Source: Owenia fusiformis
Taxonomy: Eukaryota; Annelida; Polychaeta; Sabellida; Oweniidae
Direction: 5' to 3'
Assembly (NCBI GenBank): GCA_903813345.2
Contig: CAIIXF020000008.1
Span: 22,120,822-22,184,821 of the forward strand
DNA length: 64,000 bases
The translations under genes were made by a program, and so were the position numbers. The notes below the pieces were generated by a model that saw nothing but the letters and a program-made list of their open reading frames with translations, had not been told where the DNA came from and did no database searches. Of the stretch, positions 19,001 to 63,755 are shown one piece after another. The first letter of the stretch is position 1. Every line of letters begins with the position of its first letter.

Positions 19001-22000
19001 ATTTAAGAGTTATAGTGTTCATCAATTGTGGAGGTCTGAATTTCAACAAAACCCTGGTTTCCATGGTAACCAATCAAATTTCAGCTCCCAAAGTCTAAAT
19101 CAATACTTTAGATCCATCATTGTCAAAAATCTGAAAAAATGAGACATGAATCTCCCTTATTTCAAAAGTTATAACATCCATTCAATGTCGGGGTCAGGAT
19201 TTCCTTAAAACCCTGGTTACCATGGCAACCAATCATATACCAGCTCCAAACTTATATTAAAATACTTAAAACCAACCATTTATGAAGATCTGAAAAAATG
19301 AGACCTGTATCACCCTTATTTCAAAAGTTATAGCATCCATCCAATGTGGGAGCTCGAGTCTATGAAATAGACCCCTGTATAAGTCATGGACCAATAAAAG
19401 GCCAAAATCTGAGGTTTTGTGGACTGATCTTTACATACAATTGTAGCTAATATATTATAGGAGTTTTCTATTTACATTTTAACCCTTCCCAACACATTGG
19501 GGACAAAATATGCATTAAATGACTCTGTCAGTCCTGAAAAATTGGCCTGAAAATTGACACCCGAAGGGCATGTTTTATCCATTTCCATGGCAACCACTTA
19601 AGCATGTGACATGAAATTTTTATCATATATTCAATTAGTCTATACCAATATAACTTAGTAATTTGGAAACATTCCACTGAGTATTTTTTGAGTTCTTGCC
19701 CAATTTTATAGTAGGGGTCCAAATTTTAGCCCATGGGGGGTTAAATGGCCACAAAATCTAAAAGCTGAAAAACTAAGATCTAATAATCCATAAAAATATG
19801 TATAATCATAGTAGTAACATGAAAAATTATGTCTCATAAAATCCCTCTGAACGCACGCCGAAACCCACATTCTGACTGCACTATTATATGTTTTCTTGCC
19901 GTAAAGCTCACACGTGCATATTTTATGTACTCGCTGTATATCGTATTATTAGTCTGTTGGTATATCAAAACATACTAGGCCTTTATGAGAATACCTGTAT
20001 CACATTGTACTGTCAATATTGTAGCATGGCTGAGAAAGAGATGAAGAAATTAGCTGAAGAAAGAAGAAGAGAGAAGATGGAAGAAAAAATAGCAAGACAA
20101 AAAGTGAAAGAACAAATTGAAAAAGACAAACGAGATAGAGCAGCAAAAGTAGGTGTTATGAATCTTAGGGGTGAATCTAAGGGATAAATTCTGAAAGAGT
20201 CATATTACTAGCCACAAACCATGTATGTAACAAAAATAAAATATTATGTGTTATTACAGTATAATGTATATCCTGTTGTCTGTAAACAAAATATAACTGC
20301 CTCCTTACGAAGGATCATATTTAATTTGATCCTACTGATTACAGAAGTCGAGTATAAAGTCTGGTATAAAGAACAACATTATTAATACATGTATTACTAT
20401 AGTATAGCATGCATCAATTTTATTTCTAGTTTGCTAAGACAGATCCCTCAGTGAACACTGCAGCTCCAGCAACAGCTACTGCGGCACCCCCTGTGCAAGT
20501 TGAGAAGAAAGAATATGACACATGTAGAATACAGGTTGGTTATTACCATGATCTGTCTCTTGATTCTTGATATATTCTTAGACTTAGAAATCATGTCAGG
20601 AGTATATTGTGATTCATTGGGCTTTGCATAAAAAACCTCGTACCCTTGTACATGGGTCGTGATACAGACTTTGAAGGGTTCAAATTTTAAAATTCTTAAT
20701 TTGTTAATTTGAGTTTTTTTTTTATTGTTTGTCAAAATAGCACGCTCAAATTAAAAATCTACGCTTTAGTTTTAAATACGAAGATTTGCTAGGCCTGAAT
20801 GGAATTCTGTTTCATTTTATTTAATCACAGCATGAGTAACAGTGATTTTAGTCTCAGGGATCGTAAGTTCAGCCCAACACACAACTGTAATTGTTTGCTT
20901 AACTGTGGTCATGGATGATGATTCGCCATCTGGTTCCAAATTAAATGATGGGGAGAGTAGGCCTAGTGCACCCATAAAAACAAGGATGTATTACAATCTA
21001 AATGTCAAATTATAGTCAATTCAATTCAATTCAATTTATTATTCAATTCTAGTTTTCATACAATATTAATTTACAAGTGATATGAAAAGGACACCCCGAG
21101 GGGTGTATGGATTTCATGTTTTGAAAAAATAAAATGTGTTATACATAAAGCATGTCATGTTAGAACAGTTATTGTAATGTACAAATTTACAAAGCATACA
21201 TTTTTAATTATCTTGATGTAACATAGTGGAAGTATGGTTCAAACAGCTTTTAGGGTATACTTCCTTGAATTGCCCAGCAAGTGAAAAAACAATTTCAGTG
21301 AAGATTGCTTCTATAGTGAACGAGCCTTTCAATTGCATAATTTTGATGAAGGTAAAATAGCAAAGATAAACAATTCTGGCTTTATTTTATGACTAGACAA
21401 ATGCTAGATCTATAGGACATACACATTGGCCTACAAGTGCATTAATACATCTACAGCACAGGAGATAATATTTTAAAATTTGAGCCCTTCAAAGACTGTA
21501 TCATGCCCCTCCCTAGGTACAAGGTTTTTTATACAAAGCCGATTAATTATTCTTAATGTGTTATATTCTGAAATATAATACAAAACATGGATGTTGGGCT
21601 TAAAATGAGCGGATTTATTTTTAATTAATAAATCTTATTACAAAACACATCTTCTTACAAAACATATTGATTCATTTTACGTATCGGGCAATATTAATAT
21701 TAATGACTTCTGGCGGTTAGTTAAAACTAAACGAAGGGGAATGGGAAAAATGTGTTACAATTGAGGGGTGACAATGGTAGTATTTTAGACACGGAAGTAG
21801 ATATTTGTAACGAGTGGAAAGCGTACTTTCAAAAACTTTATACACCTGCAAATAATCCTGTTTTTGATAACGGCTTTAAGCAAGAGGTCGAAGGCACAAT
21901 TCATAGAATTGATCAATTAACGCGCACCCAAACTGACGATAATTTACAGGAACCGTTTTCGGAAGTCGAAGTTATCGCTGCTATAGATAGATTGAGATTA

Positions 22001-25000
22001 AATAAAGCACCGGGGCACGATCTTGTCACCCCAGAGCATATAAGGTACGGTGGTACAAGGTTAATCTCGGTCTTAACGTATCTATTCAATGCTATAATCG
22101 AAAATGAGTTCTTTCCGGATTCTTTTAAAATAGGGGTCTTAATAACGTTATTCAAAGGAGGGAACAAAGATATTTTAGAAAAAGATAACCATAGGGGTAT
22201 CACGTTAATGACCATATTTAGCAAACTATTTGAAAATTTATACATAGCACGAGTTAAGGCCGATAATAACATTGAACCGATACATTGTCTGCAAGGGGCA
22301 GCAATAGATGGTACTTCTTGTATCCACACATCGATGGTCGTGCGGGAGACTGTCGCGCATAATGCGGACAGGGGTAGTGATACATATATAGCATCATTGG
22401 ACATTAAAAAATGTTACGATTCTGTCTGGATAGATGGGTTGTTGTATACACTCTTTAACCAAGGTTTCAAGGGGAAAATATGGAGAATTTTGAAAATTTG
22501 GTATTCGGATTATCAATGCAGGGTTAGAGTGGGAAAAACTATGTCTGATCCTTTCTTCATTAACCAGGGAGTCCATCAGGGGGGTGTCTGTAGTTTGATG
22601 CTCTATATGCGTTTCACAAATAGCCTCTTAAAGGAACTCGAACAAAGCAATGCTGGATGCAGAATCGGCAATATTAATGTAACCTCACCCACATACGCCG
22701 ATGACCTGATCCTCATGGCTGTGTTCCCAAGGTCCTTACAAACATTACTGGACATAGCATATCGTTTCAGTACGCGATGGCGTTTCACCTTCCACCCTGG
22801 GAAGTCAAAAACGTTGATGGTTTGCACTAAAGAGAGACAGGGCCGCAAAGACTTGTGTTTTTACCTTGGACCAGATAAAATGGATCATGTCAGAGAATGT
22901 ACACATGTGGGTCTCATTTTAAATACAAATGGTAACTTGAAACAACATATTGATAATGCAATGGGAAAGGCTAGAAGGGCTATCAACGCGGGGGTGGGGC
23001 TTCTCAGCAGTGACTCCTTCGAATACAATCCACTGACGGCCTCTATTTTATATTGGTCCATATCGGTACCATCCATGACATACGGTATGGATATCCTGCC
23101 ATTGAAACAATGTGATTATGATACCCTTGAATTGACACATAGACAAATAGCAAAACGTATTCAACAATTGCCATGTAATGTGCATAACGAAGCTTCCTTG
23201 GCACAACTGGGCTGGTCGAGGATTCGTGCGGTCATAGATACAAAAAAGTTAATGTTTCTGTGGTGTATCCTAAATCTACCAACCACATGTGTGTATAAAA
23301 TGATTTTTATAATTGAGTTCTTTAGATGGAAGTCAATTTCTGAACACTCAAAGTTGTATAGCAACTATTCAGTAATAAATGCAGTTTTGAACCTTGTGAC
23401 AAGATACAATTTATGGCGATATATTGATGAATATTTTTTGAATTATGACCTGATGCCCAAATGTGCGTGGAAACGGATTGTTAAAGCACGCATAATGCAG
23501 TATGAAGAAGACAGATGGCACCTGTTATGTAACATATCTAACAGACTTAGCGTTTATAGAACGATACAAGTTACGATAAAACCATGCGTATGGTGGAGAA
23601 TCTGTCAATCGAATTGTAAATATATAGGGATGTGTAGGGATATGGTAAAACTGCTAACAGGTGCTTTCCCACTCAACTATGACACCATTTGTCCTCTGTG
23701 TGGGATGACAAATGAAACGACAAGGCATTTTCTCTTAGATTGCCTTGAACTTCATGAAAGTAGGAGTGACTTGTTGGCAGTTTTAAGTGACAGGATATTT
23801 GATGGATATAATATGGTTGAAAAAATGGAGATCTTACTAGGAAAAAATGAAGCATTAGACTACAGAATGTATGTGAAGATAATGTTAAGTGTCAAACACA
23901 TGTTAAAAACAAGAGCTGCAGCTATAGCTCTATAAACTATTAAATCAACACAGGTTGCGTTGTAAATATATATATTTTTATTTTTATATTTTTAATATTG
24001 CCACATTAACTTTATAATTATTATGTACTCATCTGCATAGGTGGAAATAAAGATACATAAACATAAACATAAACATTTTGCCAATGCAAGTTGTTTACAA
24101 TGCAAGGCAATATATAAAAACCGCCCTATGATAAACGTATATACATTGAATAAAATACATGATGTTTAAGTCATAAAACGTACCCCTCTAAATTTGGGAG
24201 GGTGGGAGAGGAATATTCAATTTTTTCAAGACCCCCAGCGAACTTCTGCCCAGAGTACTATTTTACACTGAACGAAAGTTGATCCCCAGCCCCGGGGATA
24301 TTTCATATATTGCTTACATTAAAATTAATTTATAAAATGAATATTCAATAATTTGGGATTCACAAATTCAGTTGTACATATAATATCTATTTTAGAATTA
24401 TAAAAATTCATATACAGTAAAACCTGCGAACAGGGAATGCTCTTGGGACTGAAGGAAAGTTTCCTTGTTCAGAGGTTTTCCCTATAGAGAGGGGCCGCAC
24501 TTTAAGCAAACTCAAACTTGCCGAATAAGCATATTTGTATATATATTGATTAATTGTACAAATGCCGGCTCCATACTTGGTTACATTCTCCCAATGTTGA
24601 TTTTAGCTGCTGCTAGTGTCTGATGATGTCTAGTTGATGTAATTATTGATATGATGTGTAGAGATATAGTGCTAAGAACTGAATTTCAAGTTTCATCAAC
24701 CCCATTTTATATCATTGATAATCTAGAAGTTGGACCAGTAAAAGATTTAAATAGATTTGGCTCAACATGACCATGTACTTACTATCTGTTATCTCCATAA
24801 AACAATTGTGTCAGTCTCTAGATTATCACAACTGATTTGATGCAATTAGGTTTTTGAAGGGAAGAATTAGTGTCATGATGATGAGTAACAAACAGATTAG
24901 TACTAGTTTTAAAACAAATCAGGGTAATTAACAGTGGGTGGGATGCTACATCATGTAAACAATTGGCTTATCTTAATCTCAATCATATTAATCCAAGCTT

Positions 25001-29201: not shown

Positions 29202-30149
29202 TTACTCTGCTCTTTGGTTTGTTTCCCAAAGGTAAGGGTTGCCCTCTTGAAATGTAGGTATGGGGAATATAAAGTTAAACAGCCACCAGGATCCAAAAAC
29301 AGTTCGGAAATTCACCTCAGGGGATATGTTGTATTTCTTGCTTCCTTTGAATCCTTCGTATGTTGTTTGTCCATGCCAGATCAGGGTTATCTGCCAGAAA
29401 AAGAACCAAGTAGTTACTAATAAAGATGCCCCGGAGAAGTACAGTTGAAGCATACAATAGCAGAACCACCATGATGTCTGTCCCATAAATGCTTGTATCA
29501 AAGTAATTGGTGGTATGTATGATATGATATGTCCCGAAAAGATTGGTTTCTCAATGTCCATGTATAGAAGACCAACTGCAATGAATATACTTAAGCCAAT
29601 GGAGGTGTAGAACAGCCATACAATGAAATAACGCTGGTTGTAGTAGGAGATGCAGTTACCAGTAAAGAAACAGTGATGATCTCTTTTGAACTGGCATATT
29701 TTGCAATGTTTGCAATGGAACGCACGTGGAGGAATGTTCACTTGACACTTGATACAAGTATCCCAGCCATCTTGCATTTGCTCCTCGGTTAGTGGCAATG
29801 GTGATGTTCCACGTACTTGAGACATCTGCTTTACGGAACACAATACCCAGTTGATAATGATCTGAATAAGGAGGAAGACTACAAGCGCAGCGAATCCATA
29901 GTAAAAGTGCATACTGTAGTCGTAACTGTATCTAGCAAGGATTTTCGGCACTTCAATTAAAACTTTCGTAAGTGATAATGAAAAGACCAAGTACCAGAAA
30001 AATGATACTCCATAAGCATTGGCGACTGCATGCTTCACACTAAAATCTCTTTCATCGTAATGGTCCTTTAACTTTTGCTTCAATGAAGGGCCTGTATACT
30101 TTCGTTCAGGGTATTCTTCGGAAGATAAGGCCCGCCTCAGATGTTCCAT
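29202..30149 (-). CDS. DHHC-type palmitoyltransferase
   Basis: Predicted S-acyltransferase that transfers palmitate to cysteines of target proteins in Golgi or other membranes. The 315-residue frame has no introns. Two membrane helices lie at about 48-66 and 83-104. The cysteine-rich zinc domain runs about 132-166 (CIKC, HCKHCKIC, then DHHC at 157-160 and FFTGNC). Further hydrophobic segments lie at about 174-196 and 226-258. DHHCFFTGNC followed by NQRYF is like the ZDHHC22/24 branch. The frame stays open 35 codons upstream, but without an ATG, so I start at 30149. The gene starts head to head with a plus-strand transcription unit beginning near 30300. Confidence 0.92.
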   Translation of the reverse strand: MEHLRRALSSEEYPERKYTGPSLKQKLKDHYDERDFSVKHAVANAYGVSFFWYLVFSLSLTKVLIEVPKILARYSYDYSMHFYYGFAALVVFLLIQIIINWVLCSVKQMSQVRGTSPLPLTEEQMQDGWDTCIKCQVNIPPRAFHCKHCKICQFKRDHHCFFTGNCISYYNQRYFIVWLFYTSIGLSIFIAVGLLYMDIEKPIFSGHIISYIPPITLIQAFMGQTSWWFCYCMLQLYFSGASLLVTTWFFFWQITLIWHGQTTYEGFKGSKKYNISPEVNFRTVFGSWWLFNFIFPIPTFQEGNPYLWETNQRAE

Positions 30150-30320
30150 TGTTGTAGTTTTACAAGATATTTTCCTCAAATATGTGTATTTCCTAGCTAA
30201 TTGGGTGGATTTGTAACGTGTTTGTAATTCAAAATCCGTCTCGAATGTAAACAAGATTATCTCGCGAGATTTGGGCCCCGAGATTTTAACGTGATCGAGA
30301 TTTAAGATGGCGGTACCGGG
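30150..30320. promoter_or_regulatory. Probable bidirectional promoter with TCTCGCGAGA
   Basis: TCTCGCGAGA near 30261 is a known motif of divergent housekeeping promoters. AAGATGGCGG near 30305 is YY1-like. The stretch is locally GC-rich and lies between the DHHC gene and a plus-strand exon with a donor at 30393. Confidence 0.5.
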
Positions 30321-30393
30321 AACTTTGAATCGAATTTATCGCGGTTTTCGACACGATTTCGAAGCAATAAAGTGTAGAGAAGACTAAACATAT
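30300..30393 (+). other. Candidate non-coding first exon of the LRR gene
   Basis: A good donor (GTAAGTA) follows 30393, and a good acceptor (TTGTAATTGTAG) precedes 34354, just upstream of the LRR start codon. The exon contains a 26-codon frame (30307-30387) closed before the donor, so it would be a 5' UTR exon with a small upstream ORF. The link is inferred and needs transcript data. Confidence 0.4.
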
Positions 30394-33726: not shown

Positions 33727-34447
33727 TAAGATTACCCCATAAATATACTTGGCACTCACAAAATTGTCTGTATTTCAACGACGAACTCTGATTGGGTGGT
33801 GAGTTCAGAGATATATTGTAAATTGAAAGAGTGAAGAGAGTTAAAGGTACCATTAATAAGGGGTTGACTCTGGAGCAAGAAGGTCTAAAGACAGTAGACT
33901 CTGGAGAATCTCCAGAGTCTAAAAGCCAAGTGAGCATAGAAATCACTGAACACATACAAACTCAGATTGGTACATGGTTCCTTGATTGAATGCACATTTC
34001 AGAGTTCTGTGATTCTTGGATATTTAGGTCTCAATATTAAAGCACCACTTCTTGATCTTATTTACATGCGTACTACAGTATTAGTAATGGTGAACTCTCC
34101 TGGGTGAACTCTTCCCTACTCTCCTAGACTTGTTCACAAATGAGCACAAAAAATCCAATATATTTTTTTGGGCTCCTTTCCCAATGAATTTGGATACGCC
34201 TGGTTTCATGTTAAACATACACTTTACATTTTGAAGGGATTTGGTTTAGCGTGGAAATTTTTTATGTGTGGGTGGGGGGTAGATCCCCCCATCTAGAACT
34301 AATTACGGGCATGTCATAATTATGTTAATTTTATTAAACCTTTGTAATTGTAGGCTTGAAAGAATTGATATGCAGGACTACAGGATCTGACAATTTAACA
34401 CAAAAAGGACTTCTCCAAAAGAAATTTAATCTCATACAAGTGTGTTA

Positions 34448-35218
34448 ATGTACAAGATGACTGACGCTGATCAACGCAGCATTATCCGAATGAAAGTGAG
34501 AGAAGCCAGAGTATCAAAATGTCTCTCTCTAAATAAAATCAAACTTCATGTCATACCTGAAGAGGTTTTTGAGAAGCTTCGGAATTTGGAACATTTATAT
34601 ATGAGCAAATGTAAACTTGAGGGGTGCGTGTCATATAACCTATGTAAGCTACGGAAACTAACAACTATAGATTTTTCATCAAACAAGCTGATAGCAGTGC
34701 CAGAGGAACTATTTTCACATGTGAAACTACTACGTATATTGGATTTAAGTGCAAATAAACTGACGGTTATTCCAAGTAATATTTCTGAGCTAGAATACCT
34801 TATGGAATTAAACTTATCGCATAACCAAATTGTGCGATTGCCCGACCAGTTATGCAATTTACAGAGTCTTACTCATCTGGATGTTTCTTCAAATCTTTTA
34901 AGAGACATTGATGGAAGAATATTCACAGGTGATATATGCAATTCATTGTTGATTCTTAAACTATCAAATAACCTCCTGTATGAACTACCACGAGAAATGG
35001 GTCTCCTTAAACACCTAGAGGAATTGGATATTTCTAAGAATAATTTAAAGCATGTTCCATCTACATGTAAGTCATTATTAAAACTTCAAGTGCTGATTTA
35101 TCACGAGAATCCTTGGACAGTTGACCTAAAGAAATCTATGCGTAGGAAATATCAAATGCTTGAAGCAAGTTATGGTGCAGATGCAATAGAAACATTGTTT
35201 TCTTTGGTAACAAGATAG
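34448..35218 (+). CDS. Leucine-rich-repeat protein
   Basis: A 256-residue protein of about eight tandem LRR units of 22-24 residues (about 22-215), each with the LxxLxLSxNxLxxLP pattern, for example LRILDLSANKLTVIP and LEELDISKNNLKHVP. A short capping-like tail (NPWTVDLKKSMRRKYQML) resembles the end of small intracellular LRR proteins. There is no signal peptide and no membrane helix, so it is probably a cytosolic or nuclear scaffold. I cannot place it in a named family. The coding part is one exon. An acceptor just upstream (34353) suggests a 5' non-coding exon, perhaps at 30300-30393. The alternative start at 34457 would lose three residues. Confidence 0.85.
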   Translation: MYKMTDADQRSIIRMKVREARVSKCLSLNKIKLHVIPEEVFEKLRNLEHLYMSKCKLEGCVSYNLCKLRKLTTIDFSSNKLIAVPEELFSHVKLLRILDLSANKLTVIPSNISELEYLMELNLSHNQIVRLPDQLCNLQSLTHLDVSSNLLRDIDGRIFTGDICNSLLILKLSNNLLYELPREMGLLKHLEELDISKNNLKHVPSTCKSLLKLQVLIYHENPWTVDLKKSMRRKYQMLEASYGADAIETLFSLVTR

Positions 35219-53559: not shown

Positions 53560-54070
53560 TTGTAGGTATAGAGGTTCTTATATAAGTACCTGTGCAATAT
53601 CGTCTATTCTCGATGAGCTTTGATAATTCTTGCCTGCGACTCGATAAAGAAACATTATCAAAGCGAGTCAAGAATGAACGATATTGCACAGGTACGAGTA
53701 CAAGAAAGTTTTACTCATATGACTCTGTATTATGCTTTATTTTCAAGTTTTCATGATTAATGGAACTTCATCTTTCAATTGTTATGGATACACGGGGCAA
53801 CAAAGCTCCATTGTTATGACGTCACAGCTTAGTTTTGTAGAATGAGCATGGATACTCATAGTAACGGTGTATCCGTTGCTATGTTGTTGATGTTTATAGA
53901 CCAGTGATGTCACAAGTAAATCTCATCTTGCACGTGTGACTTTTTAGGATGAAAGATGGCAATATCTTGCATGGGGTAAAGATGGCTGTATCTTGGTTAG
54001 TCATATGAGAAAATGCTATTCACACACCCTTAAATGTGTCTAGTATTGTAGGTAATGCTATTCACACCAC
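53560..54070. repeat. Insertion flanked by direct repeats, with a hairpin
   Basis: TGCTATTCACAC...CCTTAAATGTG...TAGTATTGTAGGTA occurs at about 53521-53570, again at about 54013-54053, and partly at 54056-54072. Inside, 53587-53610 and 53672-53695 (ACCTGTGCAATATCGT core) form a hairpin. The cyclase stop codon lies in the last of these repeats. Confidence 0.55.
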
Positions 54071-57000
54071 CTTAATTGTTCATCTTTCACATCTCTTGTT
54101 CCATGCAGCCAGTACGTCTTCAGTGCTCCCTTTCCCTGCAATAAAAATTGATATCATTTACTTTGAAATACATTAAGGGAGATGAAGTAGAATGTATCTC
54201 TTTGTCTCACATATTGATTAATATGCACATAGCTTCCTGAGTAATCCCATTCCACCTTCCTTAAAATACAGGTTATGCACTACTGGTGGTAGGCTCAATA
54301 TTTTGTGTGTCACTTGACCCATTCAATCAAAAAAAGTGGGTCAAACTTGGAAAATGGGGGTCAAATTGAATTATGATAATTAAGCTCATTTTGGATAATT
54401 CTAGAGTACAAAAATAAATGTGCTGCAATGAGACTTAATGTCTGGTAAAATTGGAACGCTGCAATTCCAAGCAACCCCCTTTTGTAGCAAAACTTTTTTT
54501 TATGATGCAAGTGACTTTTGCCACGATTTAAGTATCGCAAAAATGAAACATAAACCAAATCAATGGAAAATGACCAAATAAAAACCAAAGTGTAAACCGG
54601 AAGTCATGAGTGTTACGCACTTTCAGTCTAATAATGGTATTAAGTGGGAAAAGTGTGCATATGATGCCGATTCAGCGTGATTATAGCATCGTTCTGAAGA
54701 ACATTTTGAATGAGTTGATGCTTTAAGGAATTTTTTCACATTTTGAGAATTGCAAACAATGTACACAATGAATTCAGTTTCGTTGTTTTTGTTTGGATTA
54801 AACTCGATCGGCATGAGATTTTAAATCAATGAAAGACCGCGTGACATAATTTGATCGGTAAGATATAGGTCAAAACTTTTGTCATTTTGTCGTGTGGAGC
54901 TAATTCCCTTGAAATAACCTTAGTCTGTCTGGGGATAAAAGTGCATCAGTGAAACGCAATGAGTTGAAAATTCTGCGTCAGACTTGATCAAATATGCATA
55001 AAAATGGTAAAATCAACGTTAACACCAGCTCTGTTATGTATTTATATCAATAAATGACAAGCTTTCCAGCTGTAATAATAATACATATATACAGTAGTTT
55101 GTTAATGAGATCTTGTGTCAATGATGTCAGTAATATTAAATTTGATCTGTGTTCATTTATACTCAATTTGTAATACTGCCTTCAAACTAATCTACTGACT
55201 ATATCATTGTATCACAAAGCAACATTTTCTCTGATATGACATAATTTTTATTTTCGCTCAGTTTACTTCATCTCTCCTCCTGAAAACATTTGTCCTAAAA
55301 TATATATGTGAAACGAGTCAACTTAGTTTTTATGCCACCTTGTCAGGCAAAGTCATCAAAAAGATTAATCGTCATTTTTTTATCAAGCCAATAACCAAAA
55401 TCTGAATAGAACATAACTAGATAATTATGTCCATAACTTTTTTGTTGATGGTGTTTGGCAGTTGGTGTTCAGTCTCCAGCATTCCGTGTATGGTGGTTGG
55501 CAACTGTAATAAATGGTAGGTGGTGATATTTTGCATGTTAATGCCTTGTTTAATATTAAAGGCAGTGCTGCTGGTGTTATGTTTAAAAAGCTGATGTCTT
55601 ATAAATTTTTTTATTATATAATTCTATATTTAGCTCATTTATCATTCATTCAAAAATTAGAATGATATATTGGGCAAAGGATTAATTTCACTGATTTTAA
55701 TACATTTTGTCATGCTGTATTTTACAATTGACTTATTTTTGTATTTTTTAGTGAGTTTTTTATAATCTAGTTTGGTCAAGGGCGAACGTAATACCCGGAT
55801 CGTTCGCAAATTGGCGTTCACTTTTTTACCGCATTCGATTTGAATTAGCCAATAAAAATGATAGGGGTGTGAGAACTTGAAATTTTTTCTGACGATGTGT
55901 CATACCCCCATTTGACACATTTGGTAGAAGGCAACCATTTTGAAAAATGGCCACCATTTTAACATATTTTACTATTTTTACGACTTGAAAAGTAAGGGAG
56001 CTATTTTGTTCATATTTGGTATGCGAATACTATAAGCATGGCATTTTGAAAAATGGCTGCCATTTTTGCTATATACATGTACATTGTTTGTAAAAATGCC
56101 AGCCATGGCTGTTTGATGGGATTTGCTACGCTTTGACGTTGCTGTTGTCTAGCTCTAACTCGTTTATTTTAGGATCGGAAATGGGAACTGAGCCCCTGTA
56201 GTATGTGTATTATAGTTCAACATTATCTAGCAATTTCTAGAACATATTATTTTGTGTAATTATTTGATTAATTGATATGCATACCTTGACAGTAGTTTCT
56301 CCCCTTAGTTGCATTACAAATCCTCCAAGCTGTTCGAGTAGCACATGCGTCTTCTCTGATACCTGGATGTGCTCTGCTTGTGACGTACTTTCCATTCTTG
56401 AGGCAGTGTTCACAGTGTCACCGAATATACAATACCGAGGCATTTTTAGCCCTACAACGCCAGTAACAACTGGTCCTGAGTGTATACCAGCACGCATCTG
56501 TAATGATTTCTCTTCCATGTGCCTTATTTTAAAGCTAGTTGCTGATTTTGTAAAATCCAAAGCCATATTTGCGATATGTCTAGCATGTTGGATTCCATTT
56601 CTTTGTGGGAGTCCTGATACAACCAAATATGCATCACCAATGGTTTCAACTTTGTAAACATCATAGTTGTCTATGATATCATCAAATATGGAGTAGAGGT
56701 CATTCAACATTGTAACAATCTGAAGAGGAGCAGAGGCAGCACAAAGTTCAGTGAATCCCACAATATCGGAGAAGAAAACTGAGACCGAGTTGAATGTTTC
56801 TGGAGGGACTGGTTCACCTCTGGAAAGGGCACTAGCAACCATTGGTGGTAAAATTCTGTGCAGTAAGCCTTCCATATTGGCCATTGCCACAGAGAGTTCC
56901 TGTGTCCTCTCTTCGATCCTGGATTCTAATGAGGCTACATAGGTCTCTAAAGTTTCCATCATACATTCAACTACACTAGTTCTTCCTCTTTTGTTGCTCG

Positions 57001-60000
57001 CTTCCAATAACTTCACAATGTTTTGAAATGTTGGTCTCTTTGAAGGCACAACCTGAGAGGCTTTTTTCATAATTTTTTTTACGCTTTCTGGTACCTCTGG
57101 TGAGATTTGTGGACATATTGTATTTTCCATTATCATTTGTATTACCTCTTTTGGTTCTTTCATCTCACCACTTGTGAGTTCAGTATATGGGTCCTCTTTG
57201 GTGAAAATCTCTAAAAGGATGACACTAAAACTATAGATATCCCCCTCCAGTGTGTATCTAATAGGAACTGTGCTGTTTTTTCGACAGTATTTCTGTTTGA
57301 GGATCTCAGGAGCCATCCAATAGTCTAAAGCTGCCAATACATTTTCATCATCAAGGATTTCAGCATCGATCTCTTCTGGTGTTTTACTGGCACTATTGCT
57401 CTGCTGATTCACAGCTAATGAATTATACTCCCAGTCTGCAACCTTTACGTTCCATTTTCCATCCAGGTAGCATGATGTTGTTCTTAAGTTACCATGGATA
57501 TTATTTAAACTATGCAGGTGTGCCATACCCATTGCTACATCAGTTGCCATGGCATACATCAGATTAACTTTAATTGTAAATTTTTCATTTTGAAGAACAT
57601 CTCTTAAACACCTTTGGAAAACATTCTCACTAACTATAAACATTGTATTATCTATTTCAGTCACTCCCATTAATTGTACAATGTTTGAATGTTTTAAACT
57701 TTGAAACGTTAAAATTTGTCTTTTTGTCTTTTTATTCAAATCCAGTATGTTCAGCTTGCTTTTGCGGAGGCATATGGTGTTTCCATTCCAAATTGCTATG
57801 TTGGGTTTCGATCCCTCAAGTTGACTTGTTGAATAAGATCCTGTCTTTAAGGAAATGGATTTAGTAACAGATACTGCTCCTGTGTTTAAAAAATGAATAT
57901 CGGTGTTTAGGATCTTCCAATGTTCTAACCAAATGGCCCTGTTAACCTTATAGCGGGTGTATGATACATAAAGACAAAACAAAAGAATGATAGCAGTCAA
58001 TATGGGTATCATGATGTAAACGGGAAGTCGCCATGTTTGCAGTGAGCGTTCTTCATCCTTAATTTGCTTCTGCTTTAGATCATAAACATTCTGGCCATTA
58101 CTACATGTCATTTCTTTAAAAATGTTATCAACTCTGGTTTTTATAAAATCTTGCTTCATTATCACCATACCCAATCTATCAGCCTCTTGTTCGGGAATCT
58201 TCTCTGTGTGTATCCATTTGATATATCTCTGTAGTTCAATAGCTGTGTTGCAATTTTCCATTCCAGATTTATATATGATTAAATAAGTTACTCCTACTAT
58301 GGGATATGCAAATTGGGCTGTTTTGTCAATCAGATTAATGGTAAATTCTGGTGTTATGGTCTGAAGAGATGACTCGAGGGCAGCATTTATTGTGTCAGTA
58401 GTTGGCCTAACTGTTGTTCCTCTTTGATTAATGATACTGGCATATGTAAAGCCATACTGAACTGCTTCACTGACAGATATATACCCGATTGAGTAGGATG
58501 TAGTTTGGACCAACCCTGATATTCCTGATGTCAAATGTCCGTAAGAAAATATTGCGCTTTTGTTCCAATGGACTGGCTCTTCGTTGTCACCCAGTCCTTC
58601 CTTAAATGACCCATAATCTGAGTCCCATGATGCATCAAAGCTGGACAATGCACTTGTAAATAAATACGTTGTACCTGACTTATCAGCTCTAGCCATTGGT
58701 TTGATTCTTGTGTGTTTGAGTGATATATTTGGGTTTGTCAGTTGTATTTCAGGGGCATCCCAAAATTCAAAAGTTCCATTATATATGCCAACGATAGCTG
58801 CTCGGGAAAGTGTAAGAGACTTGATGCCTGGTATGTTAAAGGCGAGAACAACAGCTCTGGAATTAAAGGAAAAGCATAGTATTAATTTAATCATGTTCTG
58901 TAGTTATAGGACCTGTACACTAGTCACTTCATACATGTAGATTTTGCCAACAGGGAGCAAATACCACTAACTGATTATTTCTATTATGTAATGTTTAAAC
59001 TGATGAGTGCCTTGATAAAATATGTTTTGGTTGTTGGATTATAACTTCTCCACGAGTTTTTCTAATTGACTTTGAATCCTAATCATTAGCCCTTAAATAT
59101 GTCTGGATGTTATTTAATTAAAAAACAAATGAGGAATGAATAAAATACACTGGTGATCCACTCGATTACGTTCGTTTTGGTAACAAAATGTCGGATAGTC
59201 GAAGGTTCGATTTTTCTTTTCTCCTTATTTCACGTGTTGTAGGCAGAATTCCCACGACATTTTTATCACAAACGTGTGTCAGTATCACATTTTTAAGAAA
59301 ATGTACATATTTGCGAACAAATAGTTCAGAAGCCAACAGAATCGTCGATTTAATTCTTCACTTAAGTTACATAAATGGTATTTCGAAAAACAGTTAAGAT
59401 AAGCACTTTTAACCCATACCATTTATGTAACTTAGTCGAGCGGATCACCAGTGAAAATATATATATTTCAAAAATATATATTGCAATTGAATTTGATGTA
59501 CATGTATTCTTGAAAATGAATAATAAAAATGAATAATCCTATACGCAAGTATATGGCATTATTTTTGCTTCTTTATTCATTAAATTCAAATATATTCGAT
59601 ATATGAAATATTAATACTCGCTAAATCATTTTCCATTCGGTAAAAACGTTTATATGTTTGTTACAGCAAATTAAGTTTTCAAAATAGCCAATCACTTAAT
59701 ACTATGTGCATTAAATTACATATTTCATTCGCTAAATGATATGTTTTTGCGTAAATTGTTAAGGTAAGGTTAAGAGTAACACATTTCTATTTGAACCCTA
59801 CCAAAATAAGTTTGCCTATATTTACCGAATGGTTTATTTTTCTATGACATAGTTAATGCATTTTACCGAAAGCTAATTTGCTATTTACCGAATGCAATAA
59901 AGTAATATTCGATAACTTTCGTTGTTGTTCAATATTTTGTCACGTGACCTCGAGATTTGCAAAATGGCCGCGCAGCTATTCTACATCGTTCAAATATATC

Positions 60001-61522
60001 ACGTGACTGAAAGTCTCGTAAAGTATCGAAAAATAACGAAATTTATCGAATGTGGCATTCGGTATTTACCGAATATAAATAATTTAAATACCGAATGTAC
60101 AAATAATTAATTGAAATATACGTGCGTTAAGGAAAACAAATAGATTCGCTGCATCACACAAATACATGTACACTGTGTATAAATATCAAATGTGAATGCC
60201 AACACAAAGAACAAGTGAAACTATTTAGCGAATATAAATTGTATAGATTATTACATTCGATAAAATAAAAAACATTCGATAGATTTGGTAAATGTTTGGT
60301 AAATTGTTTGTTTTATTTGGTATTTATGGAATATTTAATGTACCAAATGAAGAAGCAGTTTAAACACCATACAAGTACATGTAATGTGTTAATGTGTTTG
60401 TCACATATCAAATGTAAAACATCTTTAGAATGTTATGTACTACTGTGTCGTTATATTATTTTTCTAAAAATTAAATAATGTTAGTTTGTTTACTGTTATA
60501 AATAACCATTATACTGTATTTAAAAACTGAATTAAAATTGGAATAGTCTATGTATTAGATTTGATAATTGAGAATACTTTTCATATCAACCAAATATTTA
60601 AAATATTACATTAAAAACTAATTTATCAAGTAAACTCATGTCTGAATGAAAAAAAACATTCAAAATCATTATGAAAATAAAAGCAAATAATATTATCTTA
60701 CAAATCAAAGAATTTATGAAAAACTAAAAACCAAACAATCTGAAAATACATGTTATTTATGAAAAAGAAATATAATTATATGAATTTCTTTATCTTAACA
60801 TTGAAACCAATACAATGAAATTAACTCACAAAACTTTTGTTTTATATGTTTACCTTTTCCAGAGCTAAATATAACATATATCTTGTAAATATTAGGTTCC
60901 ACTTGCAATGTTTATCACACTGAAATTTTGAATCATTGAACCATTTGTTTGATATAAAAAATTCATTCAAAAATTCAGCAGTATTGTAAAATTCAATTAT
61001 GAAAGTAGTGTTTTAAAATATGTGCAAAAATGTATCTTAAAACCCAAAATTACAGTTGTTAAAATTATAGTTGAAATATTGAAATAAAACTACATTTTGA
61101 AGAACAAAACTTTTCCTGAATACAACAAGGTTTTATTGAATTTGTATAGATGAATGAAGAAGAATAAGAAAGTATTACACTTAGATTATCAACAAATAAA
61201 CACCTTACCCAGCAAGAATTGGTATCATTTGTAAATTAGGGTATTCCCGTGAATCTTCATCTGTCAATACTGTATCAGATCCCACATAATCTACATCCTT
61301 CCCATCTAATCCTTTGATATGTTTTTTCCCTACTGAGCTACCCACACTCTCATAGATCATGTTTAAGTTGACAAAGTTTTGTCTGTATGTCTTGTATATA
61401 GCAATCCAGACATTATAAACTCTTGCTGGAAAAGAGGCTCCTGATCCTTGAAGATTAACATTCAGTTTTGATTCAATATCAAACAAGCAAAGCAAAAATA
61501 TGAAGCAGTGTGTGAGTCTCAT
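54058..61522 (-). CDS. Receptor guanylate cyclase with PstS-like phosphate-binding ectodomain
   Basis: Three exons (61209-61522, 56285-58856, 54058-54135) join with GT-AG borders and matching phases into 987 residues. Residues 1-18 are a signal peptide. Residues 24 to about 375 are homologous to bacterial PstS (GSGASFPARVY, YESVGSSVG, VDYVGSD, VVLAFNIPGIKS, RADKSGTTYLFTS, IGYISVSEAVQYG). The positions that contact phosphate in E. coli PstS are kept: S30 (Thr there), F31, S62, D83, R161, S165, G166, T167. One membrane helix lies at about 382-404. The kinase-homology domain (about 435-724) has HGNL and DWE instead of HRDL and DFG, so it is a pseudokinase. The coiled linker is about 737-772. The cyclase domain (about 795-975) has metal D802 and D846, guanine-selecting E842 and C914, and N921/R925; the last exon adds GKGALKTYWL. 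Inferred role: extracellular ligand binding (perhaps phosphate) raising cGMP. Confidence 0.9.
55900..56140. mobile_element. Truncated copy of the CCGT/ATGGCC element
   Basis: Shares GGCAACCATTTTGAAAAATGG-like and TTTTGTTCATATTTGGTATG phrases and the end TTTGATGGGATTTGCTACG with 36140-37175. The 5' part is missing. Confidence 0.6.
59150..59453. mobile_element. MITE with CACTGGTGATCC ends
   Basis: CACTGGTGATCCACTCGA at the left and TCGAGCGGATCACCAGTG at the right are near-exact complements. AAAATA flanks both sides. An inner inverted pair (AAGTTACATAAATGGTAT) lies at about 59362 and 59414. It lies in the cyclase intron 1. Confidence 0.7.
59575..60310. repeat. Stretch rich in TTACCGAAT / ATTCGGTAA
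   Basis: TACCGAA, ATTCGGTA, ATTCGATA and related words occur more than a dozen times in both senses over about 700 bp of the cyclase intron. This suggests a decayed palindrome-rich element. No coding capacity. The rest of the intron to 61200 is plain AT-rich sequence. Confidence 0.45.
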
Positions 61523-61576
61523 TGTTTCTATTGCTCTGTCCAATGTTTTACTTTATGAATGTTGTGTTGAATGTGT

Positions 61577-61607
61577 TTATATATAATTGCCTATCGCTGT
61601 GACGTCA
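61577..61607 (-). promoter_or_regulatory. TATA box and CRE before exon copy 1
   Basis: On the minus strand TGACGTCA (61600-61607) is followed by TATATAAA (61577-61584), about 55 bases before the ATG at 61522. The geometry fits a core promoter with a CREB/ATF site. Confidence 0.5.
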
Positions 61608-62288: not shown

Positions 62289-62602
62289 CCAGCAAGAATT
62301 GGTATCAATTGTAAATTGGGATGTTCCTGTAGTTCTATGTCTGTCAACTCCGAGTCAGATCCCGCATAATCTACATCCTTCCCATCTAATCCTTTGATAT
62401 GTTTTTTCCCTACTGAGCTACCCACACTCTCATAGATCATGTTTAAGTTGACAAAGTTTTGTCTGTATGTCTTGTATATAGCAATCCAGACATTATAAAC
62501 TCTTGCTGGAAAAGAGGCTCCTGATCCATGAAGATTAACATTCAGTTTTGATTCAATATCACACAAGCAAAGCAAAAATATGAAGCAGTTTGTAAGTCTC
62601 AT
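62289..62602 (-). CDS. Second copy of the PstS-cyclase first exon
   Basis: A 314-bp copy of the exon at 61209-61522 with an intact start codon, signal peptide (MRLTNCFIFLLCLCDIES) and phase-2 donor (GG|GTAAGA). All ligand positions in this half are kept (S30, F31, S62, D83). Changes from copy 1 cluster after the ligand Asp: SELTDIELQEHPNLQL replaces TVLTDEDSREYPNLQM. No second copy of the downstream exons follows it before copy 1. It is therefore either an alternative first exon of the 54058-61522 gene or a partial duplicate. Confidence 0.75.
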
Positions 62603-62733: not shown

Positions 62734-62761
62734 TTTATATATGCCTATTGCTGTGACGTCA
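62734..62761 (-). promoter_or_regulatory. TATA box and CRE before exon copy 2
   Basis: The same block as before copy 1: TGACGTCA at 62754-62761 and TATATAAA at 62734-62741. It is about 130 bases before the ATG at 62602, because a duplicated scrap of about 70 bp of exon start lies between. Confidence 0.48.
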
Positions 62762-63441: not shown

Positions 63442-63755
63442 CCAGCAAGAATTGGTATCAATTGTAAATTGGGATGTTCCTGTAGTTCTATGTCTGTCAA
63501 CTCCGAGTCAGATCCCGCATAATCTACATCCTTCCCATCTAATCCTTTGATATGTTTTTTCCCTACTGAGCTACCCACACTCTCATAGATCATGTTTAAG
63601 TTGACAAAGTTTTGTCTGTATGTCTTGTATATAGCAATCCAGACATTATAAACTCTTGCTGGAAAAGAGGCTCCTGATCCTTGAAGATTAACATTCAGTT
63701 TTGATTCAATATCACACAAGCAAAGCAAAAATATGAAGCAGTTTGTAAGTCTCAT
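63442..63755 (-). CDS. Third copy of the PstS-cyclase first exon
   Basis: Again 314 bp with an intact ATG and donor. The protein differs from copy 2 at one visible site (NLQGSG instead of NLHGSG). It lies in a repeat unit of about 1.15 kb that also carries identical intergenic sequence. Upstream it lacks the TATA/CRE block seen before copies 1 and 2; a CCGT-type element begins about 120 bp away. Confidence 0.72.

Follow-up and report, generated by a model that had tools for sequence, protein, structure and literature searches.

The window analysed here, 64,000 nucleotides of the genome of the annelid Owenia fusiformis (C8:22120822-22184821, on a chromosome of 39 Mb in a genome of 498 Mb), contains a gene for what appears to be a single-pass animal receptor guanylate cyclase with an ectodomain of the bacterial PstS type. 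Comparison of sequences suggests, with a probability that we put at about 0.68, that this ectodomain, a Venus flytrap, senses inorganic phosphate or a very similar oxyanion. The PstS type is best read as a novel kind of receptor-cyclase ectodomain, with an analogue in the NIT-domain cyclases of animals, and a second gene of the same build lies on the same chromosome.

The gene is made of three minus-strand exons (61522-61209, 58856-56285 and 54135-54058), which GT-AG joins in phases 2 and 0 unite into a frame of 987 codons and a stop. The span given in the initial annotation, 54058-61522, is its exact extent from stop to start codon. Exon 2 stays open for 857 codons, and would be stop-free by chance with p ~2e-27 at its own base composition. 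The protein comprises, in this order, a signal peptide, a domain of the PstS type (residues ~20-356), a single membrane helix, a pseudokinase, an S-helix and a guanylate cyclase. That succession in one spliced frame, read at first from the letters of the DNA, is borne out by the splice-site frame, by Pfam and PDB matches and by hydropathy. The parts of the gene are as follows.

61209..61522, minus strand: exon 1 (copy 1), with the signal peptide (residues 1 to ~19) and the N-terminal part of PstS lobe 1, which holds the equivalents of Thr10 (here Ser), Phe11, Ser38 and Asp56; from splice sites and frame, PDB alignment and pocket mapping
58857..61208, minus strand: intron 1, GT-AG, phase 2, within PstS lobe 1; the paralogue's intron agrees in position and phase
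56285..58856, minus strand: exon 2, with the remaining PstS domain, membrane helix, pseudokinase, S-helix and most of the cyclase
58103..58855, minus strand: PstS domain, residues 106-356, with the equivalents of Arg135, Ser139, Gly140 and Thr141; from AlphaFold, Foldseek and VIA-align
57965..58021, minus strand: single transmembrane helix, residues 384-402; Kyte-Doolittle peak 2.64
56966..57808, minus strand: kinase homology domain, residues ~455-735; Pfam PF07714 at 3.7e-31, HGNL and ADW in place of HRD and DFG, alignment to atrial natriuretic peptide (ANP) receptor 1
56786..56965, minus strand: S-helix or dimerisation linker, residues ~736-795, with ERTQEL; from alignment to ANP receptor 1 and the motif
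56285..56806, minus strand: guanylate cyclase catalytic domain, exon 2 part; Pfam PF00211 at 6.4e-63 (7.7e-62 in the genome search), with FFSDIVGFT, KVETIGDAY and FGDTVNTASRME
54136..56284, minus strand: intron 2, GT-AG, phase 0; again matched in position and phase by an intron of the paralogue
54058..54135, minus strand: exon 3, with the C-terminal cyclase motif GKGALKTYWL and the stop codon
53736..53741, minus strand: polyadenylation signal of the AATAAA/ATTAAA type, ~320 bases past the stop

By sequence, homology to PstS spans the whole ectodomain. The initial annotation had proposed a search with PstS profiles, and the match is significant: the PstS equivalog TIGR00975 gives 5.3e-59 (199.8 bits) and the Pfam family PBP_like_2 gives 2.4e-20 on the spliced ectodomain. 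The best match in the PDB is PstS 2z22 (2.1e-36), and 21 PDB sequences have an expectation value (E) of up to 0.01, the last two being DING-type proteins. Identity with the DING or human phosphate-binding proteins was considered and rejected: the ectodomain starts KLNVNLQGSGASFP and has no DINGGG, and the DING chains both stand at E 0.0038 against 2.1e-36 for PstS. In the Pfam scan of both genes' ectodomains PBP_like_2 is the only match, with none to ANF_receptor, the type I periplasmic-binding-protein (PBP) family; within the gene, Pfam gives no match to the NIT domain (PF08376).

Residues 20-105 are assigned to the domain from sequence, by alignment to the PDB entries. For residues 106-356, the part of the ectodomain that exon 2 encodes, an AlphaFold model reaches a predicted local distance difference test score (pLDDT) of 86.4 and a predicted template modelling score (pTM) of 0.86, and the best solved matches that Foldseek finds for it are PstS (3.4e-18). 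The fold overlay that had been suggested with the initial annotation was run on this model, and the predicted structure superposes on PstS over 235 residues (VIA-align Z 27.4, root-mean-square deviation 1.8). Because the model was built with rows from 39 of the 80 prokaryote loci introduced below, all of them PstS proteins, its likeness to PstS is to be taken as compatibility and not as independent proof. The ectodomain carries three N-glycosylation sequons, at 131, 148 and 203, and cysteines at 307 and 356, with counterparts at 320 and 369 in the paralogue.

The case for phosphate is made in the anion pocket. The contacts of E. coli PstS with phosphate are, as we take them, Thr10, Phe11, Ser38, Asp56, Arg135, Ser139, Gly140 and Thr141, and they were mapped in an alignment that set both ectodomains beside 80 prokaryote relatives and two PstS rows from the PDB. 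Seven of the eight are identical in the window gene and its paralogue; the remaining one, Thr10, is Ser in both, as it is in 13 of the 79 informative prokaryote rows. Overall, the two animal ectodomains share the prokaryote majority residue at 94 and 95 of 283 positions (~33%), so that, with seven of eight contacts identical, conservation is far stronger in the pocket than elsewhere. From work on E. coli PstS, Asp56 favours protonated phosphate over sulfate, and it is because the equivalent of this residue is kept that phosphate would be the likeliest ligand. The initial annotation had named a structure lacking the anion pocket as fatal to its proposal; the residues of the pocket are present in the alignment. 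Its statement that all contacts are conserved or conservatively replaced is right for the eight E. coli contacts, with Ser for Thr10, and has to be qualified for Asn177, which is Thr in the window gene. In the phosphate-bound structure of PhoX, Ser34 falls at position 10 by numbering offset (PMC5439949).

The intracellular half belongs, on comparison with known sequences, to the receptor guanylate cyclases. Its best PDB match is ANP receptor 1 (2.9e-113), colinear with it over query residues 54-575 of 585, and the cyclase motifs FSDIVGF, KVETIGDAY and RYCIFGDTVNTASRME, whose residues we take to be the guanylate-specific and metal-binding ones, agree with that receptor. The counterpart of HRD, HGNL in the window gene and HHSL in the paralogue, makes of the window gene's kinase homology domain a pseudokinase without the catalytic Asp. 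As for the membrane, the only hydropathy peak over 1.6 besides that of the helix, 1.74 at residues 98-116, falls within the PstS domain. The hydrophobic N-terminus MRLTHCFIFLLCLF looks like a signal peptide by eye; in a 19-residue window it stays below 1.6 here and reaches 1.66 in the paralogue.

This paralogue lies 13.7 Mb off (exons 35919880-35919525, 35918746-35916103 and 35915794-35915696, in C8:35911800-35920800) and encodes 1,032 residues, with the domain order, both intron positions and both phases of the window gene. Between the two proteins, identity is highest in the cyclase (64%), followed by the PstS domain (47%) and the kinase homology domain (34%), and the paralogue's ectodomain matches TIGR00975 at 6.3e-61 (206.2 bits), passing the curated equivalog cut-off of 205 bits. 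With E allowed up to 10, TIGR00975 gives six matches over the whole genome, and each is an exon of one of the two receptor genes or an extra copy of exon 1; PBP_like_2 finds the two genes' large exons only, in a search by which members of the family turn up in 13 of the 14 control genomes. A free-standing PstS was detected nowhere in the genome with these two profiles, which can miss weak matches. As far as profile searches tell, the PstS domain is detected in this genome solely as the ectodomain of these two cyclases.

The bacterial homology of the PstS domain, taken alone, would fit a contaminant, an assembly error or a frame that links a bacterial gene to an animal one by accident, an explanation to which we leave practically no probability. 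The gene stands on a 39 Mb chromosome and has eukaryotic introns, its 857-codon open exon spans PstS and cyclase, and its best-scoring prokaryote relative, among the best 80 of at least 579, is merely 35% identical. The paralogue, which has diverged and yet shows this fusion and these intron phases, already refutes it: contamination or a wrong join is untenable because two diverged genes keep one fusion and one intron layout. The initial annotation had argued that the domain is no contaminant since an intron splits it, and the paralogue strengthens that argument. The testable parts of its interpretation hold; what it overlooked is the paralogue itself, the extra exon-1 copies in tandem and the replacement of Asn by Thr.

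The cyclase domain was compared across the genome as well. Among the matches listed, at least 150 of the 183 PF00211 positions stand in one stretch only in the two PstS genes and at three sites on C2; two of these sites (L021 and L022) look by eye like membrane adenylate cyclases, with no PstS, and the third has internal stops. By score, three C3 loci adjoining NIT matches come next among the relatives of the cyclase, at 46-48% identity, and shorter exons elsewhere reach 62% and above. As a ranking by score favours long exons, we claim no cyclase sister group beyond the paralogue.

How does this receptor stand beside known systems? With bacterial PstS (of PstSCAB; E. coli 1IXH/2ABH, Yersinia 2Z22) it shares the modelled fold, a domain that is full-length by sequence and the eight core contacts, and it is 33-35% identical to the two aligned PDB PstS rows; it differs in that its domain would be anchored in the membrane, outside an animal cell, is fused to a cyclase, is split by an intron and has Thr for Asn177. 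With the ANP receptor and other particulate cyclases (NPR1, GC-C) it shares the pseudokinase, S-helix and cyclase that follow a single membrane helix, whereas a PstS-type (type II) ectodomain takes the place of ANF_receptor (type I). Other comparisons are with the fungal receptor SPPG_06488, whose prefix presumably stands for Spizellomyces, with the calcium-sensing receptor, a class C G-protein-coupled receptor chiefly for calcium and not known to be of the PstS type, and with the GCY receptors of Caenorhabditis elegans, the ectodomains of which are, to our knowledge, not of that type either. SPPG_06488 likewise has PBP_like_2 on a eukaryotic receptor (PMC3251606); it is a class C G-protein-coupled receptor of a fungus, likened here by its published description. 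The calcium-sensing receptor stands on the surface of animal cells and is reported to bind phosphate (cited in PMC10104895). The C. elegans proteins show receptor cyclases at work as ion sensors, GCY-1 for K+, GCY-4 for Br- and I-, and GCY-22 for nearly all salts (PMC5225109).

The nearest precedent, by analogy, is that of the NIT-domain guanylate cyclases, in which, too, a domain of bacterial type that senses anions sits on an animal cyclase (PMC1592074, PMC7400543, PMC10584369). They have been described in animals since 2006 (PMC1592074), with a commentary on an annelid (PMC10584369). In placozoans NIT is a helical domain between two membrane helices, followed by the cyclase (PMC7400543), unlike the PstS flytrap, single membrane helix and pseudokinase of the present receptor. 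The same animal possesses a sizeable set of NIT cyclases: there are 12 NIT matches in its genome (best 5.4e-24), on C1, C3, C5 and C7 and none on C8, several of them near cyclase matches. Among the top-ranked literature, judged by titles and the openings of abstracts, there is no description of a PstS-type receptor cyclase, and an earlier description or database annotation is possible; no paper naming Owenia fusiformis together with guanylate cyclase was found.

For the origin of the PstS domain, a scan of prokaryotes gave at least 596 stretches and at least 579 relatives, the best 80 of which were used for alignment and tree. Of these 80, the top scorer has 35% identity to the window ectodomain; another locus is best for the paralogue, at 34%. 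A quick tree was built from 105 rows: the 2 animal ectodomains, 79 of the 80 prokaryote relatives and 24 viral-contig rows picked by hand from 80. Rooted at the midpoint, it unites the animal pair in a clade of support 100, whose branch measures 2.31; both animal rows are flagged for length and composition. Within these 105 rows the clade has no supported prokaryote sister. The long, unplaced branch and the best identity of 35% suggest that the acquisition or divergence of the domain is probably old. The idea of a recent transfer from one particular group of bacteria gains no support: the best relatives (among the best 80 of at least 579) are 34-35% identical, and in the tree of 105 rows no prokaryote sister is supported. 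A bacterial transfer and an old eukaryotic PstS lineage are both possible sources, the latter because a fungal class C receptor has PBP_like_2 (PMC3251606).

If phosphate is indeed the ligand, it would bind in the cleft of each ectodomain within a homodimer; closure of this cleft in the flytrap, which is of the type II periplasmic-binding-protein kind, would shift the membrane-proximal ends, and the shift would travel via membrane helix, pseudokinase and S-helix to change the cyclic GMP (cGMP) output of the cyclase. Several points weigh against this proposal. The phosphate reading derives from sequence comparison and a predicted structure, the match in structure covers residues 106-356 and is partly built in through the PstS rows, and the coupling of PstS closure to the dimer is conjectural. 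The TIGR00975 score of the window gene lies below the curated cut-off (199.8 against 205 bits), a shortfall that is not unusual, since 12 of 14 named control genomes match and 4 of these exceed the cut-off. In the pocket, the window gene has Thr at Asn177, where the paralogue and 79 of the 80 prokaryote rows have Asn; at Gly138, which is likewise Gly in 79 of the 80, the window gene has Lys and the paralogue Ser, so that affinity or specificity may have changed. Asn201 of Xanthomonas citri PhoX, which corresponds to Asn177 by a constant offset of 24, contacts phosphate (PMC5439949). Asn177 is a supporting contact, not a family-defining one. The two substitutions in the window gene, together with the long ectodomain branch and the example of the ANP receptors, whose type I PBP ectodomains bind peptides, would suit a domain co-opted for another small molecule, for a peptide or as a dimerisation scaffold, phosphate not being its physiological ligand. 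We regard this as unlikely: the eight core contacts, one with Ser for Thr, are kept in paralogues that differ at 53% of ectodomain positions, and an unused pocket would be expected to drift.

The phosphate-sensing receptor that we prefer may be conceived more narrowly, as an outward taste or microbe and food detector for phosphate or phosphate-containing metabolites, and not for the animal's own phosphate balance. This is a tentative thought, held at less than even odds; the classical PstS pocket shuts out large phosphate esters, which speaks against it. In its favour, C. elegans receptor cyclases serve ion-specific taste (PMC5225109), and the micromolar affinities of PstS suit dilute environments, the dissociation constants of the bacterial proteins being 0.11 uM in SAR11 and 0.4-4.3 uM in Synechococcus (PMC12421899). 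With a similar affinity, the receptor would be saturated in a millimolar body fluid and informative in dilute surroundings, which, by this analogy, makes an outward-facing sensory role more likely. It is less likely than not that we have here a dedicated receptor for inorganic phosphate, founding a class of receptor cyclases old enough for paralogues whose ectodomains are 47% identical, in which promoter-linked alternative first exons would swap the part of the lobe around and just after the Asp56 equivalent and so tune affinity. A role as partner of the ATP-binding cassette transporter proteins PstC, PstA and PstB is unlikely, given the fusion to a membrane cyclase.

The alternative first exons just invoked refer to a triplication of exon 1, accompanied by candidate promoter sites, among them a motif resembling the cyclic AMP response element (CRE).

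62289..62602, minus strand: exon 1 copy 2, frame and donor intact; TGACGTCA at 62754-62761 and TATATAAA at 62734-62741
63442..63755, minus strand: exon 1 copy 3, frame and donor intact; no exact TGACGTCA or TATATAAA upstream of it within the 5 kb searched
61600..61607, minus strand: candidate CRE-like site TGACGTCA upstream of exon 1 copy 1; exact motif search
61576-61583, minus strand: candidate TATA box TATATAAA upstream of exon 1 copy 1; exact motif search

The copies resemble one another unevenly. Upstream of copies 1 and 2, 719 of 726 aligned bases match from -900 to -100 (74 gap columns aside), and 86 of the last 100 before the ATG (again 74 gap columns); the sequence upstream of copy 3 differs from both. 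Between copies 2 and 3, 313 of 314 exon bases are the same, as are 494 of 499 over the next 500 bases of intron and 257 of 276 beyond, and the intron of copy 1 is unlike theirs (57 of 94 in the first 100 bases). The 21 exon differences between copies 1 and 2 are clustered, 5 in the first 240 bases and 16 in the last 74, a mosaic that suggests crossing-over or conversion. Of the residues that vary among the three copies, 9 of 12 are at 80 and 84-99, around the Asp56 equivalent (residue 83); the phosphate contacts encoded by exon 1 are identical in all three. Farther upstream, a possible fourth, decayed copy (L183 1120-1148; 29 bases at 83%, E 0.015) is too faint to be counted.

The three first exons may, with less certainty than the rest, provide alternative N-terminal lobes. 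The chances are about equal that copies 2 and 3 are unused relics of unequal crossing-over: they differ at a single base of 314, the sequences upstream of copies 1 and 2 are nearly identical with their exon differences in a mosaic, and the exact CRE/TATA pair is absent from copy 3. Use of the copies is favoured by the intact frames and donor sites of all three, by the presence of a CRE-like site and a TATA box at both copies 1 and 2, and by a nonsynonymous divergence (dN) of 0.057 between these two copies against a synonymous one (dS) of 0.124. Moreover, as first exons have no acceptor, an upstream copy in use would bypass the others automatically.

With reference to physiology, the question of a dedicated sensor for extracellular phosphate in animals is still open, and glycolysis in the kidney has been proposed as a sensor (PMC10104895). 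The receptor is a candidate for such an animal sensor, and both genes permit a direct test. Should the reading be true, the receptor would be a natural converter of phosphate to cGMP, useful for biosensors; it would add a further animal cyclase with a bacterial-type anion sensor beside the NIT cyclases, and it would show how freely the ectodomains of receptor cyclases were exchanged.

The window holds other features. An Rfam scan of it gave no match, and neither did a search of the whole genome for COX1. A 734-residue open frame on the plus strand (21731-23935) encodes a reverse transcriptase (PF00078, 9.7e-27), probably of a retrotransposon without long terminal repeats. On the minus strand, 29202-30335 is an open frame for a DHHC palmitoyltransferase (PF01529, 1.6e-26), and on the plus strand a single open frame at 34430-35218 encodes a leucine-rich-repeat protein (PF13855, 2.9e-32).

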